Part shown: positions 16,915 through 42,533 of the stretch, in pieces
Layout of the letters: every line of letters starts with the position of its first letter
Numbering within the stretch: position 1 is the first letter of the stretch
DNA from: Brachyspira sp. SAP_772
GTDB taxonomy: Bacteria > Spirochaetota > Brachyspiria > Brachyspirales > Brachyspiraceae
Length of the DNA: 64,000 nucleotides
Assembly: GCF_009755885.1 (NCBI RefSeq)
Contig: NZ_VYIX01000002.1
Location: 843,585 to 907,584, forward strand
Direction: 5' to 3'
Notes under the pieces: model-generated
Database searches by the model: none
Seen by the model: only the letters and a program-made list of their open reading frames with translations
What the model was told of the DNA's origin: nothing
Program-made: the position numbers and the translations under genes

Positions 16915-16942
16915 TTGATTTTTATTTGTTATAATATATAAT
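16915..16942 (+). promoter_or_regulatory. Sigma-70-type promoter of the MBOAT operon
   Basis: TTGATT (16915-16920), a 16-bp spacer and a consensus TATAAT (16937-16942). Transcription would start near 16949, placing the whole pentamer tract in the mRNA leader. Confidence 0.55.
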
Positions 16943-16964
16943 AAATTGTCATGATTATAGTTAA

Positions 16965-17034
16965 CCAAACCAAACCAAACCAAACCAAACCAAACCAAAC
17001 CAAACCAAACCAAACCAAACCAAACCAAACCAAA
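16965..17034 (+). repeat. Pentanucleotide repeat CCAAA x 14
   Basis: Fourteen perfect copies of CCAAA in 70 bases, ending 36 bases before the MBOAT start codon and 24 before its ribosome site. Simple tracts of this length change copy number by slippage. It is the only long perfect short-unit tract in the window. Confidence 0.95.
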
Positions 17035-17070
17035 TAGAATACTTTTGCATTTTTTTCTGGGAGTTAAATA

Positions 17071-18546
17071 ATGCTGTTTAATTCCACAGAATTTATGATC
17101 TTTTTTCCTATAACACTCGTTTTATACTGGATATTTCCAAAAAAGTATAGATATATTTGTTTGTTTATAGCTAGCTATACATTTTATATGTTTTGGAACC
17201 CTAAGTATGCTTTATTAATGGCTACTTCTACAGTTGTAACATTTTTAAGCGGTATATTAATAGAAAAACTAAAATATAGAAGAACAGTAGTTGCTTTTAG
17301 TTTTATTATCAATCTTGCTATATTGGTATTTTTCAAATATTTTGATTTTCTTCTACAGAATATTAATATTTTATTGTCAGTATTTAATATAAAATTGGTA
17401 GAAAAGCCTCTTGATATTATTTTACCTGTAGGAATATCTTTTTATACTTTTCAGGCATTAAGCTACACAATAGATGTTTACAGAGGTGAGATAAAGTCAG
17501 AGAAAAATATTATTAAGTATGCGTTGTTTGTATCATTCTTCCCTCAATTAGTAGCAGGGCCAATAGAGCGTTCTAAAAATTTGCTTATTCAGGTAGAAAA
17601 TTTAGATAAAGTAAAAAGATTCGATTATGATAGAATGACAGAAGGTTTATTATTAATGCTTTTTGGTTATTTTCAAAAGATGGTCATAGCAGACAGAGCA
17701 GCAATATTAGTAGATACAGTATTTAATAGTTATTATGAGTATAACAGTATGGCTTTAATTTTAGCAGCAGTATTTTTTTCTATTCAGATATACTGTGATT
17801 TTGGAAGTTATTCATTAATAGCGATTGGAACAGCTAAAGTTATGGGAATCAATTTAATGGAGAATTTTAACACTCCATATTTTGCTAGAGGGATAAAGGA
17901 GTTTTGGGGTAGATGGCATATATCATTATCTACTTGGTTTAGAGATTATCTTTATATACCTTTGGGCGGAAATAGATGTTCAAAGCTTAGAAAAAGTTTT
18001 AACATATTAGTAACGTTTTTAGTAAGCGGACTTTGGCATGGAGCTAATTTTACCTTCATTGCTTGGGGAGCTATACATGGTATTTGTCATATAATAGAAG
18101 AACAATTAAAACCTATCAAAGAAAAATATTTAAATAAGTTTAATATTAGAACAAATGTCTTTAGTTTCATTATATTAGAAATAATCATTACTTTTATAAT
18201 AGTAGATTTAGCTTGGATATTTTTTAGGGCTGAAACTATATATGATGCCCTTCTTTATATAAAAAGAATATTTACAAGAATAGATTTATGGACATTGTTT
18301 GATGGTACTTTATATAATTTGGGATTGAACATTTTTGAGATGAATATACTCATAATAGCTTTATTTATATTGATATCAATAGATTTAATAAAGTACATAA
18401 GAAAAGAGAGTATATTTGAGTTTTTAAGTAAGCAAAATCTATATTTTAGATGGTTTGTGATGTTATTTTTAATTTTTTACATAATTGTTTATGGTAAATA
18501 TGGAGCAGGATTTGACCCTAAACAGTTTATATATTTCCAATTTTAA
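17071..18546 (+). CDS. MBOAT-family membrane O-acyltransferase (AlgI/DltB type)
   Basis: 491 aa with about ten membrane helices, GGGAG 7 bases before the start. The family core is present: FFPQLVAGPIERSKN, then KEFWGRWHISLSTWFRDYLY near residue 280, and LVSGLWHGANFTFIAWG with the invariant membrane histidine near residue 320. The family moves acyl groups (usually acetyl) across the membrane to polysaccharides, teichoic acids or alginate. The SGNH-like partner follows after 15 bases. Expression may vary through the upstream pentamer. Confidence 0.95.
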   Translation: MLFNSTEFMIFFPITLVLYWIFPKKYRYICLFIASYTFYMFWNPKYALLMATSTVVTFLSGILIEKLKYRRTVVAFSFIINLAILVFFKYFDFLLQNINILLSVFNIKLVEKPLDIILPVGISFYTFQALSYTIDVYRGEIKSEKNIIKYALFVSFFPQLVAGPIERSKNLLIQVENLDKVKRFDYDRMTEGLLLMLFGYFQKMVIADRAAILVDTVFNSYYEYNSMALILAAVFFSIQIYCDFGSYSLIAIGTAKVMGINLMENFNTPYFARGIKEFWGRWHISLSTWFRDYLYIPLGGNRCSKLRKSFNILVTFLVSGLWHGANFTFIAWGAIHGICHIIEEQLKPIKEKYLNKFNIRTNVFSFIILEIIITFIIVDLAWIFFRAETIYDALLYIKRIFTRIDLWTLFDGTLYNLGLNIFEMNILIIALFILISIDLIKYIRKESIFEFLSKQNLYFRWFVMLFLIFYIIVYGKYGAGFDPKQFIYFQF

Positions 18547-18561
18547 TATTGTGAGAGAATT

Positions 18562-19983
18562 ATGAAAATAAAAATTATTAAAATTGTACTTTTTATATCT
18601 ATTTTTATATTTATTTTTATCAAAATAAATAAAACTCTTATTTTAAAAAGTACTTACGGTATCAATCAGTTTAATATTTTTTATAAACAAGAAAAAAGAT
18701 CTGTAGATGTACTATTTTTTGGAAGCAGTAGGGTATTTTTTGGCATTAATCCTGGAATATTGTATAAAGATTATGGAATATCATCCTACAATTTGGCTAC
18801 TTCTTTAACTCCATTTTGGCAGATATATTTTTCTGTAAAAGAATCATTAAAGACTCAAACCCCAAAACTTATAGTTATTGAAGCTTATACTACAGTATTT
18901 GTACGAGAATACACTACAAAAAGTAGTATATTAAATTTTATTTCTGGATTAAAAATATCAGAATTAAAATTAAATGCTATAAAGGTTAGTGTACCAAAAA
19001 AAGAAATAGATAAGTATTTTAATTTTATGTATCAATATCATGATAGATATTCTATTCTGAAAAAGAATGATTTTATAAACGATAACAGTTTGCAATATTT
19101 TAAAGGATTTTCCTATCTTTATAATACAGAAAAAAATGTTAAATATAGCACTAATTTAGTGAGGGAGAATTTGAAACTTTATTCAAAAACAGAAGAATAT
19201 TACAGAAAAACTATAGAACTAGTAAAAAAATATGATATTCCTATTTTAATAATTCTTTCTCCATATATTAATATTCCATTGACATATAACCATAAAAAAA
19301 TTTTTAATAGTGCTGAAAATATAGCTAATGAATATGATATACCCTTTATTGATTTTAATTTATACTATGATGAGTATAAATTAAATTTTTATGAAGATTT
19401 CAATGATTGGACTCATTTAAACTATAAAGGTTCAACTAAATTTACGAGATATTTAGGAAAATATTTAAAAGAGAATTATGATTTAGCTGACAGACGAGGA
19501 GATCCTAAATATTATTCTTGGGAGATAAATGCTGAATATCAGGATAAAGAAATTTATAATTTTGAATTAAAACAATATACTAATTTAAATAAATATATAG
19601 AAAAAGTAAAAAATGCTGATGATTATGTTATAGGTATTACTATGCTTGGAAATTATCAAAGTAACGATATCATTGTTCAAAATATAATATCAAATTTTAA
19701 TATTAATGATATTTATTTACAAAATTCATCTTATGTAATAGATAATAATAAACTTATATATTCTTCATCTAGTTCAAATCAATATTTATTTTATGATGAA
19801 ATAGGAAACTATACTGATTTAGTTGTAGATAGTGGTAGAAAATTATCTATTAATAGGACAAACTATATTAAAACAACAAATGGAATTAATATGGTAATTT
19901 ATGATAAATTTACAGAAGAAATAGTTGATAATATATATTTGGAATATAAAGATAATTCTATTGACACTACAATTAAGAGATAA
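18562..19983 (+). CDS. SGNH-like O-acetyltransferase partner of the MBOAT protein (AlgJ/DltD-like)
   Basis: 473 aa with one N-terminal signal anchor (residues 4-25), so the rest is outside the membrane. VDVLFFGSSRVFFGINP is the SGNH block I Ser motif, and NDWTHLNYKGSTKF the D-x-x-H block V pair. This is the catalytic partner that typically follows an MBOAT gene and puts acetyl groups on an exported polymer. The C-terminal part, after about residue 330, has no recognisable family. Confidence 0.85.
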   Translation: MKIKIIKIVLFISIFIFIFIKINKTLILKSTYGINQFNIFYKQEKRSVDVLFFGSSRVFFGINPGILYKDYGISSYNLATSLTPFWQIYFSVKESLKTQTPKLIVIEAYTTVFVREYTTKSSILNFISGLKISELKLNAIKVSVPKKEIDKYFNFMYQYHDRYSILKKNDFINDNSLQYFKGFSYLYNTEKNVKYSTNLVRENLKLYSKTEEYYRKTIELVKKYDIPILIILSPYINIPLTYNHKKIFNSAENIANEYDIPFIDFNLYYDEYKLNFYEDFNDWTHLNYKGSTKFTRYLGKYLKENYDLADRRGDPKYYSWEINAEYQDKEIYNFELKQYTNLNKYIEKVKNADDYVIGITMLGNYQSNDIIVQNIISNFNINDIYLQNSSYVIDNNKLIYSSSSSNQYLFYDEIGNYTDLVVDSGRKLSINRTNYIKTTNGINMVIYDKFTEEIVDNIYLEYKDNSIDTTIKR

Positions 19984-31575: not shown

Positions 31576-33408
31576 ATGATTGAATTATTGGAAGCCTCTA
31601 AAAATAATGATTTAGAAACATTAAAAGCCTTAATAGAAAAAGGAGCTGATATAAATGCTAAAAATGATTATGGAAAAACAGCTTTGATGATAGCTTCAGA
31701 GAATGGGCATTTGGAAATTGTTAAGTATTTAATCGATAAAGGTGCAGATGTTAATAATGAAACCATGTATGGAGATACTGCTTTAGTATATGCTTCAGAG
31801 AATGGACATTTTGAGGTGGTAAAATATTTAATAGAAAAAGGAAGTGATATAATAAATCATAGCAGTGCTTTATGGTATGCTTCAAAAAATTGTCATAAAG
31901 AAATAGCTAAATTATTAATAGATTCTGGTGCAGATATTAATTTTAAAAATATATCAGATGTTACTGTTTTGATATTTGCTTCAATGAATAATCATTTAGA
32001 AATAGTAAAATTATTAGTAGATTCAGGAGCTGATATAAATGTTAAGGATAAAAAGGGTGGAACTGCTTTGAGATATGCTTTGGAAAAAGGGCATTTAGAA
32101 GTAGTAAAATATTTGATAGATAAAGGAGCTGATATAAATGCTAAAAATGATTATGGAGAAACAGCTTTGATGTGGGCTTCAATAGATGGGCATTTAGAAG
32201 TAGTAAAATATTTAATAGGTAAAGGTGCTGATGTAAATGCTAAATCTAACAATAATGGAACAGCTTTGATGAGTGCTTCAAGAAATGGGCATTTAGAAAT
32301 AGTGAAATATTTGCTAGATAAAGGTGCTGATATAAATGCTAAAAATAGTCATAATTGGACGGCTTTGATATTGGCTTCAAGAAATGGGCATTTAGAAGTA
32401 GTAAAATATTTGATAGATAAAGGAGCCGATATAAATGCCAAAGATAAATTTTATAATTGTACAGCTTTGATGTGGGCTTCAATAGATGGGCATTTAGAAG
32501 TAGTAAAATATTTATTAGATAAAGGAGCCGATATAAATGCCAAAGATAAAGATAATGGAACAGCTTTGATATTGGCTTCAAGAAATGGGCATTTAGAAGT
32601 AGTAAAATATTTAATAGGTAAAGGGGCTGATGTAAATGCTAAAGATGATAGTAATATTACAGCTTTGATATTTGTTTCTAAAAAAGGGTATTTGGAAATA
32701 GTAAAACTTTTAATAGATTCAGGAGCTGATATAAATGTTAATGATAAAAAGGGTGGAACTGCTTTGAGATATGCTGTGGAAAATGGGCATTTGGAAGTAG
32801 TAAAATATTTGATAGATAAAGGTGCTGATGTAAATGCTAAAAATAATAAAAATATTACAGCTTTGATGTTTGCTTCAATTAATGGGAATTTGGAAGTAGT
32901 AAAATATTTGATAGATTCAGGAGCTGATACAAATGTTAAGGATAAAAAGGGTAGAACTGCTTTGAGATATGCTGTGAAAAATGGGCATTTGGAAGTAGTA
33001 AAATATTTGATAGATAAAGGAGCTGATGATTTAAATGAAGTTTTGATGAGGGCTTCAAGAAATGGGCATTTAGAAGTAGTAAAATATTTGATAGATAAAG
33101 GATTTGATATAAATGCTAAAGATGATAGTAATATTACAGCTTTGATGAGGGCTTCAAGAAATGGGCATTTAGAAGTAGTAAAATATTTAATAGATAAAGG
33201 AGCTGATATAAATGCTAAAGATGATAGTAATATTACAGCTTTGATGTGGGCTTCAATTAATGGGAATTTGGAAGTAGTAAAATATTTGATAGATAAAGTA
33301 GCCGATGTAAATGCTAAAGATAATGATGGTAAAACAGTTTTGATGTGGGCTTCAAGAAATGGGCATTTAGAAGTAGCTGAATTTTTGAAAGCTAATGGAG
33401 CTATATAA
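31576..33408 (+). CDS. Ankyrin-repeat protein, about 18 repeats
   Basis: 610 aa from the ATG at 31576 (GGAG at 31564-31567); the longer frame from 31537 overlaps the dnaK terminator and is rejected. Almost the entire protein is 33-residue ankyrin repeats of the type DxxGxTALMxASxNGHLEVVKYLIDKGADIN. One repeat (about residues 480-510, KGADDLNEVLMRASRNGH) is shortened. There is no signal peptide. Family members bind proteins; the target is unknown. The DNA repeats are near-identical within the gene, so copy number can change by recombination. Confidence 0.92.
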   Translation: MIELLEASKNNDLETLKALIEKGADINAKNDYGKTALMIASENGHLEIVKYLIDKGADVNNETMYGDTALVYASENGHFEVVKYLIEKGSDIINHSSALWYASKNCHKEIAKLLIDSGADINFKNISDVTVLIFASMNNHLEIVKLLVDSGADINVKDKKGGTALRYALEKGHLEVVKYLIDKGADINAKNDYGETALMWASIDGHLEVVKYLIGKGADVNAKSNNNGTALMSASRNGHLEIVKYLLDKGADINAKNSHNWTALILASRNGHLEVVKYLIDKGADINAKDKFYNCTALMWASIDGHLEVVKYLLDKGADINAKDKDNGTALILASRNGHLEVVKYLIGKGADVNAKDDSNITALIFVSKKGYLEIVKLLIDSGADINVNDKKGGTALRYAVENGHLEVVKYLIDKGADVNAKNNKNITALMFASINGNLEVVKYLIDSGADTNVKDKKGRTALRYAVKNGHLEVVKYLIDKGADDLNEVLMRASRNGHLEVVKYLIDKGFDINAKDDSNITALMRASRNGHLEVVKYLIDKGADINAKDDSNITALMWASINGNLEVVKYLIDKVADVNAKDNDGKTVLMWASRNGHLEVAEFLKANGAI

Positions 33409-33448
33409 TTAAAACTATAGTGAGACAAATATATATAAAGTATTGAAA

Positions 33449-33668
33449 ATGCAGTTCTTTTGGTTCTTTTATACCAATACCGAGTAGGTGCCTATCGGCA
33501 AAAGAACTGGGGTGCGGGGCAAAGCCCTGCAAAATAAAAAACTTAAAAAAAATTTTTCGGCAAATTCAAATCATATATTCTAAAATAACTATATTTTGTT
33601 ATATGATTTTTTTGTTCAACTTTTTCCCGCAGCAAAAAGTTGCAAAAAATGCAAATGTTTTAGCTTTG
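33449..33668. repeat. GC-rich intergenic hairpin mosaic, copy 8 (left direct repeat)
   Basis: Module A at 33449-33534, with the 20-base insert ACCGAGTAGGTGCCTATCGG in its loop. An AT stretch then leads to a module B end (GTTCAACTTTTTCCCGCAGC, AAAAAGTTGCAAAAAATGCA). The first 90 bases are identical to 34953-35042, and 33583-33631 matches 35083-35129 again. It forms the left arm flanking the second ankyrin gene. Confidence 0.85.
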
Positions 33669-33839
33669 TATGTTGTTAATATATATAAATGAATGTAAGA
33701 TAATATCTGTATTTTTATTTTATAGATAAAGCTATATTTTATAAAATGCAGTTCTTTTGCTTTTTTACTAAAATATAAATTTATTTTGGGTAAAATGTAT
33801 TTGTTTCAGCATTATGGTTTTGAGTTATGATTTAGAGTA

Positions 33840-33885
33840 AGGAAATATAAAGATAGCAGAATTTTTAAAATATAATGGAGGCAGT
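33840..33885 (+). pseudogene. Remnant of an ankyrin gene tail forming the next gene's leader
   Basis: In frame with the next gene these bases read GNIKIAEFLKYNGGS. This matches the C-terminal ending GHLEVAEFLKANGA of both ankyrin genes. The GGAGG of the NGG codons now serves as ribosome site for the ATG at 33886. A stop just upstream shows it is no longer translated. Confidence 0.6.
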
Positions 33886-34866
33886 ATGAAAAAGAAAAAA
33901 GATGTTGAGTTAATAGAAGTTATTAAAAAGAATGATTTAGAAAGAGTAAAATTTTTAATATCAAATGGTGCTGATGTTAATATAAAAAACAGATATGGTA
34001 ATACTCCTTTAAATACAGCTTCAGGATTTGGTTATTTTGAAATTGTTAAATATTTGATAGATAAAGGAGCTGATGATTTAAACTTGGCTTTGGGTTATGC
34101 TTCAGAGAACGGTCATTTAGAAATAGTTAAATATTTGATAGATAAAGGAGCTGATGATTTAAACTTGGCTTTGAGACATGCTTCATATAGTGGGTATATA
34201 GAAGTAGTTAGATATTTGATAGATAATGGGGCTAATGACTTAAATGATGCTTTAAACTATTCTTCAGAGAACGGTCATTTAGAAATAGTCAAATATTTGG
34301 TAGATAAAGGGGCTAATGGCTTAAATGATGCTTTAAACTATGCTTCAGAGAGCGGTCATTTGGAAATAGTCAAATATTTAGTAGATAAAGGAGCTGATGA
34401 TTTAAATATGGCTTTGTGCTATGCTTCAGAGAGCGGTCATTTAGAAATAGTCAAATATTTGGTAGATAAAGGGGCAGATGTTAATAATGAAAATAGAGAT
34501 GGTGATACTGCTTTAGTATATGCTTCTGAGAATGGACATTTTGAGGTGGTAAAATATTTAATAGAAAAAGGAAGTGATGTAATAAATCATAGTAGTGCTT
34601 TATGGTATGCTTCAAAAAATTGTCATAAAGAAATAGTTAAATTATTAATAGATTCTGGGGCAGATATTAATTTAAAAAATATAGAAGATGTTACTGTTTT
34701 GATGCTTGCTTCAATGAATAATCATTTAGAAATAGTAAAATTATTAGTAGATTCAGGAGCTGATATAAATGTTAAGGATGAAAAGGGTAGAACTGCTTTG
34801 AGATATGCTGTGAAAAATGGGCATTCAGAAGTAGCGGAATTTTTGAAAGCTAATGGGGCTAAATAA
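33886..34866 (+). CDS. Ankyrin-repeat protein with 27-residue repeats
   Basis: 326 aa, GGAGG 5 bases before the ATG. The first half (about residues 60-200) consists of 27-residue units of the type DDLNLALGYASENGHLEIVK YLIDKGA, six shorter than the 33-residue standard. The second half returns to 33-residue repeats. Residues about 200-326 match the gene at 31576 closely (LVYASENGHFEVVKYLIEKG, HSSALWYASKNCHKEI), indicating duplication or gene conversion. Flanked by long direct repeats. Confidence 0.92.
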   Translation: MKKKKDVELIEVIKKNDLERVKFLISNGADVNIKNRYGNTPLNTASGFGYFEIVKYLIDKGADDLNLALGYASENGHLEIVKYLIDKGADDLNLALRHASYSGYIEVVRYLIDNGANDLNDALNYSSENGHLEIVKYLVDKGANGLNDALNYASESGHLEIVKYLVDKGADDLNMALCYASESGHLEIVKYLVDKGADVNNENRDGDTALVYASENGHFEVVKYLIEKGSDVINHSSALWYASKNCHKEIVKLLIDSGADINLKNIEDVTVLMLASMNNHLEIVKLLVDSGADINVKDEKGRTALRYAVKNGHSEVAEFLKANGAK

Positions 34867-41785: not shown

Positions 41786-42484
41786 ATGTCTGAAAATACT
41801 ACTACATCTAAACTTCAAAAAAATGCGGAATTAATATTTACTTATGTATATAACAATAGAATAATTTTTATATCTGGTTTTGTGTTGATAATAGCAATTA
41901 TAGCTGGTATTTTAATTTATAATATGAATATAGAAAATGCTGATAAAGAAACAGCAGCAAATTTTGAAGAAGCTTTGGCATTATACGGTATGTATCAAAC
42001 AGCAAATATTCCTCAGGAACAATTAAACAACCCCGCTTTAATAGTAGATATTACTACAAGAGTTCAAAAAACTTATAATGAAGCTAAAGGAAAAACTCTA
42101 AAACTTAGAGCAGCTTTTACTTTGGGCGGGCTTTATTTTGATGTTGCTAACTATAACGAAGCTAAAAAATATTATCAGGAAGTGGCAAACTCTAGAGGCT
42201 TTTATTTGCAGCCTGCCGCTTCATACAATTTGGCTAATGTATTAATAGAACAAACTAATTATGCAGAGGCTGCTGCTGTTTTAGAAAACTTTACTAAAGC
42301 ATATCCTAAAAGTTATTTAACTCCTCAAGCAACTTTAACTTTATCTGATGTATATAGAAAACAAAATGATAAAACTAAAGCTATTAATGTATTAAGAACT
42401 TGGGTAAATAATAACACTAATAATACAGAATATTTTAATATATTTAATGAAACTATTACTCTTATAGAAAACAATATATATTAA
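41786..42484 (+). CDS. Single-pass TPR protein (YfgM/BamD-like architecture)
   Basis: 232 aa. One membrane helix at about residues 27-49 (IIFISGFVLIIAIIAGILIY). Tetratricopeptide repeats follow (ALYGMYQTA; FTLGGLYFDVANYNEAKKYY; SYNLANVLIEQTNYAEAAAV; TLSDVYRKQNDKTKAINVL). Such proteins act as periplasmic scaffolds. GAGG about 7 bases before the ATG. An 11-bp tandem repeat follows the stop directly. Confidence 0.85.
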   Translation: MSENTTTSKLQKNAELIFTYVYNNRIIFISGFVLIIAIIAGILIYNMNIENADKETAANFEEALALYGMYQTANIPQEQLNNPALIVDITTRVQKTYNEAKGKTLKLRAAFTLGGLYFDVANYNEAKKYYQEVANSRGFYLQPAASYNLANVLIEQTNYAEAAAVLENFTKAYPKSYLTPQATLTLSDVYRKQNDKTKAINVLRTWVNNNTNNTEYFNIFNETITLIENNIY

Positions 42485-42533
42485 TTTTTTATTAATTTTT
42501 TATTAATTTTTTATTAATTTTTTATTAATTTTT
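42481..42533 (+). repeat. 11-bp tandem repeat TTAATTTTTTA, 4.8 copies
   Basis: Four perfect copies (42481-42524) and a partial fifth. It begins at the TPR gene's stop and ends beside the AAGGA ribosome site of the helicase gene. Slippage here would alter only the gap between the two genes. Confidence 0.92.

Follow-up and report, generated by a model that had tools for sequence, protein, structure and literature searches.

A candidate phase-variable translational-coupling switch formed by a CCAAA tract in the leader of a Brachyspira O-acylation operon, and related pentamer tracts in the genus

The window, which is the whole 64,000-nucleotide stretch of the Brachyspira sp. SAP_772 genome analysed here, contains a CCAAA pentamer tract in the leader of an operon that begins with an MBOAT (membrane-bound O-acyltransferase) gene. 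Judging from the sequence and from predicted RNA structure, we consider this locus to be probably a phase-variable translational-coupling switch, which would now stand in its uncoupled phase (14 copies, leader ending at TAG). It looks like one member of a so far unreported, genus-wide set of random on/off switches.

The MBOAT gene (17071-18546, plus strand) encodes an AlgI/PatA/DltB-like protein of 491 aa. The protein matched Pfam PF03062 with an E value of 1.7e-29 (103.6 bits, above the gathering score of 27) and DltB in the PDB (8jem/6bug) with E about 1e-26; in the NCBIfam search it stayed below the cut-off of the DltB equivalog TIGR04091 (165 vs 375 bits). By these sequence matches, it is related to the DltB/AlgI-type acyltransferases. 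A partner ORF begins 15 nt past the MBOAT gene (18562-19983, plus strand) and encodes an SGNH-like, membrane-anchored protein of 473 aa, as assigned from motifs and a structure model. It had no sequence family match; its GSS and DxxH motifs were conserved, and the core of the model, of low confidence (mean pLDDT 51), matched SGNH acylhydrolases, PatB and DltD. On the strength of the MBOAT family match, the partner motifs and the SGNH-type model core, the two genes are well supported, at family level, as an O-acylation operon.

The tract occupies 16965-17034 (plus strand) with 14 CCAAA units, all perfect, within a maximal period-5 run at 16963-17034 (14.4 copies, 100% matches, TRF score 144). 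Four-copy CCAAA matches with up to two mismatches numbered 11 in the window, all inside the tract, vs 0.00 expected in shuffled sequences, and four consecutive AACCA units were found at a single place in the 3.04 Mb genome, the tract itself. As is characteristic of simple-sequence-repeat (SSR) contingency loci, the repeat is short, tandem and perfect, with a unit length not divisible by three. The run itself was predicted to be unstructured. Upstream of it lies a sigma-70-like promoter match (TTGATT, 16 nt, TATAAT; 16915-16942, plus strand), in a stretch where promoter-like matches were no more numerous than expected by chance, and downstream of it lie GGGAG (17059-17063) and the MBOAT ATG (17071). 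A sequence-only reading of this DNA had already reported a perfect 70-base tract of fourteen units between promoter and MBOAT ribosome site, in an interval (16965-17071) that covers tract plus leader, and the repeat search and shuffles bore this out. Because the tract is located downstream of the -10 box, changes of copy number would leave the promoter spacing as it is. The tract is followed by a TAGAA unit (17035-17039, plus strand), which orthologue comparison identified as the carrier of the stop codon used in the present phase. This unit occurs in one to three near-tandem copies among the orthologues; where it is doubled, only one of the three exit frames stays open.

Close orthologues of the gene, hereafter MBOAT-A, were found in seven other Brachyspira species with 88-94% identity, and all eight, including that of the window, carry the tract. 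The copies number 14 (window), 10, at least 5, 18, 10, 8, 12 and 16; at the orthologue with at least five, the tract meets the contig end, and the complete leaders are seven, with 8-18 copies. The upstream 110 nt are only 71-97% identical among the orthologues, and yet every CCAAA unit is perfect, which is the pattern that active slippage gives. Copy number thus differs between relatives while the units stay perfect, as in SSR contingency loci, and the earlier suggestion, that a tract prone to slippage stands in the leader of an operon for surface modification, holds. A paralogue, MBOAT-B (about 81% identical, in most species), has no tract. Two of the eight species have stop codons within MBOAT-A (L015 in genome G006 and L016 in genome G005), with tract and hairpin (described below) intact.

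The same reading had placed the tract outside the reading frame, and this did not survive the comparison of leaders. In the window, a leader mini-ORF (16951-17037, plus strand, in the present phase) runs from an ATG through the tract to a TAG. It reads ATG ATT ATA GTT (AAC CAA ACC AAA CCA)n and so on to the TAG, and would encode MIIV followed by NQTKP repeats. All seven complete orthologous leaders have an ATG 8 or 11 nt past a conserved TATAAT that opens a frame through the tract; two species have lost the ATG at position 8, and both have an in-frame ATG at 11. The ATG in the window lies 8 nt after the -10 box, and the MBOAT-A mini-ORF has no Shine-Dalgarno sequence. Because of this short distance the mini-ORF is perhaps leaderless, and from its sequence it would have to start either in that way or weakly.

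Three exit frames follow the tract. One ends at TAG (17035-17037), 33 nt before the MBOAT ATG; one ends at UAAUG (17069-17073, plus strand), where the leader stop overlaps the MBOAT start codon; and one ends at a stop 11 nt inside MBOAT. By arithmetic, 14 copies in the window lead to TAG, 15 to UAAUG and 16 to the stop inside the gene. The upstream ORF therefore ends at or near the downstream start, as in coupled genes, in two of three phases (one of three at many other loci), and the 14-copy phase falls 33 nt short. Among the seven complete leaders, five currently exit at the TAG cluster, one at UAAUG (G005) and one at +11 (G015), and one of the five with TAG exit has a second, upstream ATG that leads to +11. 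An N-terminal extension of MBOAT was ruled out by a TAG and a TAA upstream of the ATG in the MBOAT frame, and no terminator was seen in the 36-nt spacer of the window.

The MBOAT start is predicted to be locked in a hairpin (17055-17091, plus strand; 16 bp, about -16 kcal/mol). Its 5' arm (17055-17070) holds the ribosome site, with the Shine-Dalgarno sequence GGGAG at 17059-17063 (plus strand); the AUGC loop is at 17071-17074, the 3' arm is at 17075-17091, and there is one bulge. A hairpin over the ribosome site and AUG was predicted for eight of eight MBOAT-A orthologues (-13.9 to -17.8 kcal/mol), with z scores of -4 to -5.4 against shuffles in the seven tested, so in silico the downstream start is masked in all of them, as coupling would need. 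It was absent from all 18 tract-less MBOAT-B paralogues (mean -3.3 kcal/mol), whose opening codons hardly differ from those of MBOAT-A, and for 52 tract-free control genes the mean start folding was -3.9 kcal/mol, the lowest being -9.7. According to these folding predictions, tract and locked start co-occur. Hardly any variation is seen in the MBOAT-A hairpin, too little for a covariation test, and its 3' arm belongs to the coding region; at a third paralogue, MBOAT-C, the pairing is preserved mostly through one-sided changes. For both reasons we make no claim of covariation.

MBOAT-C, about 40% identical and located at C1:355091 in the genome of the window, showed the same layout with other units. 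A mini-ORF, a pentamer tract and a predicted start hairpin (-9 to -19 kcal/mol) were found in 15 of 15 species examined, the tract of one species having five copies only, and the mini-ORF ATG was preceded by a Shine-Dalgarno sequence in 14 of the 15. The unit varies by species (ACCGC, ACAGC, GCACA, AGCAC, ATCGC, CAATA) and the layout is kept. In the present phase the leader frame reaches the start in eight species and does not in seven. FkbM methyltransferase genes also share a common leader layout, with CCAAA in G020 and AAGTC in G025 and G021.

Searching both strands across the genus for any C repeated at 5-nt intervals, a design that favours C-containing units, we obtained matches in 24 of 26 Brachyspira genomes. 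The genome of the window (G000) has eight clear pentamer tracts of at least 8 copies each. The seven others (L262-L268) are at C1:354963, 511680 and 783752, at C2:269456, 914368 and 965329, and at C3:156220; they precede MBOAT-C, a glycosyltransferase and genes without clear family, and one long ORF has its C-terminal (RPDQT)n tail encoded by the tract at C1:783752. Of 91 tracts fetched, 78 were within 260 nt upstream of a gene, 59 of them in leaders and 19 at the 3' end of a long ORF that precedes the gene. Several upstream ORFs of the latter kind (about 19: L268, L271, L284, L311, L317, L320 and others) have a WWIPxKKxR motif, and such tracts would yield variable C-terminal tails plus coupling to the next gene. 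By membership, MBOAT, FkbM methyltransferase, glycosyltransferase 2 and radical SAM were the biggest target families; type IIG restriction-modification was one of the smaller ones, and such targets are typical contingency functions. Differences of copy number were also found elsewhere in the genus: 8 vs 11 at two near-identical loci of one contig, and 12 vs 20 within one genome.

Open reading frames around these tracts were enriched, in counts that are not independent trials, the loci being partly related by descent within and between species and several gene starts being inferred. An ATG within 45 nt was open into the tract at 53 of 59 leader tracts, vs 28.2 expected. For the open-frame count we used the 67 loci whose spacers measure at least 60 nt. 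All three frames were closed within 30 nt past the tract at one of the 67 (11 expected), and at 50 of them at least one frame ran without a stop to 25 nt or less from the next start (12.8 expected in shuffles). Shuffled spacers as the sole null for open frames were rejected as too lenient, because real control genes score higher (13/34), and matched control genes were used for this reason. Against these, an off-frame ORF ending 1-30 nt inside the gene was found at 23/67 loci (4.3 +/- 1.9 in controls), and one open to the start at 37/67 (20 +/- 3.6). The off-frame open-to-start signal in these sequences is strong, not universal. The furthest-reaching frames end mostly at +4 (ATGA), +8 and +11, with a few at +1 (UAAUG). 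Of the leader loci with a single clear leader ORF, 24 are at present in a phase that extends to the gene start, as against 27 in which it falls short; at nine loci one phase gives an in-frame fusion, which is the classical repeat-in-gene design. The absence of stops from the repeat units was discarded as evidence of translation, since unit composition already gives it a probability of about 0.07 and the search favoured C-containing units.

Hairpins resembling intrinsic terminators were found between tract and gene in 24 of the 67 spacers (0.7 expected), often where the spacer is longer, so that read-through may act by antitermination at those loci.

Some further repeats were noted. Two type IIG restriction-methyltransferase genes (L288, L332) have an AGCAC tract near the start, in frame in only one of the two genomes, and form a possible phasevarion. 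Contig G007:C2 (32.6 kb; L311-L315), which is probably extrachromosomal, has at least five pentamer tracts, and 44 IMG/VR stretches (L170-L213) each have five CCAAA units. In the window, the 11-mer TATTAATTTTT is repeated five times without error at 42479-42533, between TPR-like and helicase-like genes; it holds stops and is therefore not read through. Long ankyrin-type repeat arrays with a 99-nt period occupy 31968-34817.

The locus would probably work as follows. Slipped-strand mispairing would add or remove 5-nt units and change the exit frame of the leader, and copy number modulo three would set whether ribosomes reach and open the locked start. A ribosome translating a leader ORF that extends as far as the MBOAT start would melt the hairpin, and MBOAT and its SGNH partner would be translated; with a leader ORF ending at the TAG, the hairpin would stay closed and expression would be low. 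The sign of the same frame switch might be reversed, with leader ribosomes at or past the MBOAT start blocking initiation and the TAG phase being ON. The strong GGGAG, well spaced from its AUG, and the +11 frame, which covers the start site, would suit a reversed sign, but the predicted hairpin locks the start and would be left closed by a stop 33 nt upstream, and the furthest-reaching exits cluster at positions typical of coupling (+4, +8, +11, few at +1). We consider the reversed sign unlikely.

Effects without any leader translation were also weighed. The sequence-only reading had expected a graded or promoter-related effect, and its observation of the tract stands; its interpretation holds in part, and the reading did not notice the mini-ORF, the hairpin over the start site, the orthologues or the wider family of tracts in the genus. 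The position of the tract 3' of the -10 box and the conserved open frame led us to set aside promoter spacing or a graded effect as first choice, and the hairpin and the frame-dependent pattern at dozens of tracts speak against such an effect as well. A role as an untranslated spacer, by which mRNA level or stability is graded with tract length as by the AGAT repeats of Moraxella uspA2, would agree with the location in the 5' leader, with the unstructured CCAAA run and with graded effects of upstream repeats described in PMC7302503. The conserved ATG with its frame open into the tract, the frame structure past the tract and the start-site hairpin make it quite improbable. Slippage can make tandem repeats anywhere, and the tract persists in the two species where MBOAT-A is broken, as selfish or neutral growth without regulatory role would allow; we hold such growth to be very improbable given that the tracts stand specifically in front of surface-glycan and restriction-modification genes, that orthologous genes share the design while their units differ, and that frames and hairpins are enriched. 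From the conserved open frame, the start-site hairpin and the frame-dependent genus pattern together, the effect to be expected of the coupling switch is on/off, modulo three.

We also lean, on the basis of the genome comparison, towards a switch that is programmed by frame across Brachyspira: pentamers in leader ORFs or at the 3' ends of upstream genes would govern coupling or antitermination through copy number modulo three, acting on surface-glycan and restriction-modification genes, with the MBOAT/SGNH operon of the window among them. If this is true, each genome in a genus of gut spirochaetes carries between several and a few dozen switches, acting on genes of surface-glycan modification and restriction-modification and on others, with a proposed mechanism different from the usual repeat-in-gene switch and with a bearing on the antigen instability and phage sensitivity of Brachyspira.

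Simple-repeat phase variation has been studied extensively in Haemophilus, Neisseria, Moraxella and Campylobacter. For Brachyspira, our searches of the open-licence literature gave no report of phase variation driven by pentanucleotide or other simple sequence repeats, and the B. hyodysenteriae genome paper, searched by terms, gave no mention of repeats of this kind. Surface genes that vary in phase through repeats are well known; what would be new, as read from these sequences, is a contingency locus that uses a separate leader ORF together with a locked start. In Haemophilus influenzae, SSR contingency loci include lic1A, lic2A, oafA and others (PMC2651432, PMC6479036). The Brachyspira loci resemble them in perfect short repeats, in surface-glycan targets (there including the O-acetyltransferase oafA) and in modulo-3 on/off logic. 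They differ in that the H. influenzae repeats are tetramers and mostly lie inside the effector ORF, whereas the Brachyspira pentamers lie in a separate leader ORF, before an effector start locked by predicted RNA structure, and in a different phylum. Closest in logic is lex2A/lex2B of H. influenzae, where a short, repeat-bearing first ORF precedes and governs the transferase gene; we know of no hairpin-locked start or intergenic terminator there. The GCAA tract of lex2A and its ON/OFF numbers are given in PMC6479036.

In Moraxella catarrhalis, a CAACG pentamer upstream of the modO ORF is linked to a 20-fold transcript difference, and an AGAT repeat is located upstream of the uspA2 ORF (PMC7302503, available part). 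These share with Brachyspira a repeat upstream of the annotated ORF, at modO also a pentamer, whereas their effects are described there at transcript level and that part of the source describes no leader ORF. In classical translational coupling and attenuation, translation of a leader ORF melts the hairpin that covers the following start, or keeps a terminator from forming. In Brachyspira, by contrast, the leader frame would be set by a mutable repeat, so that the state would be heritable and random instead of ligand-responsive.
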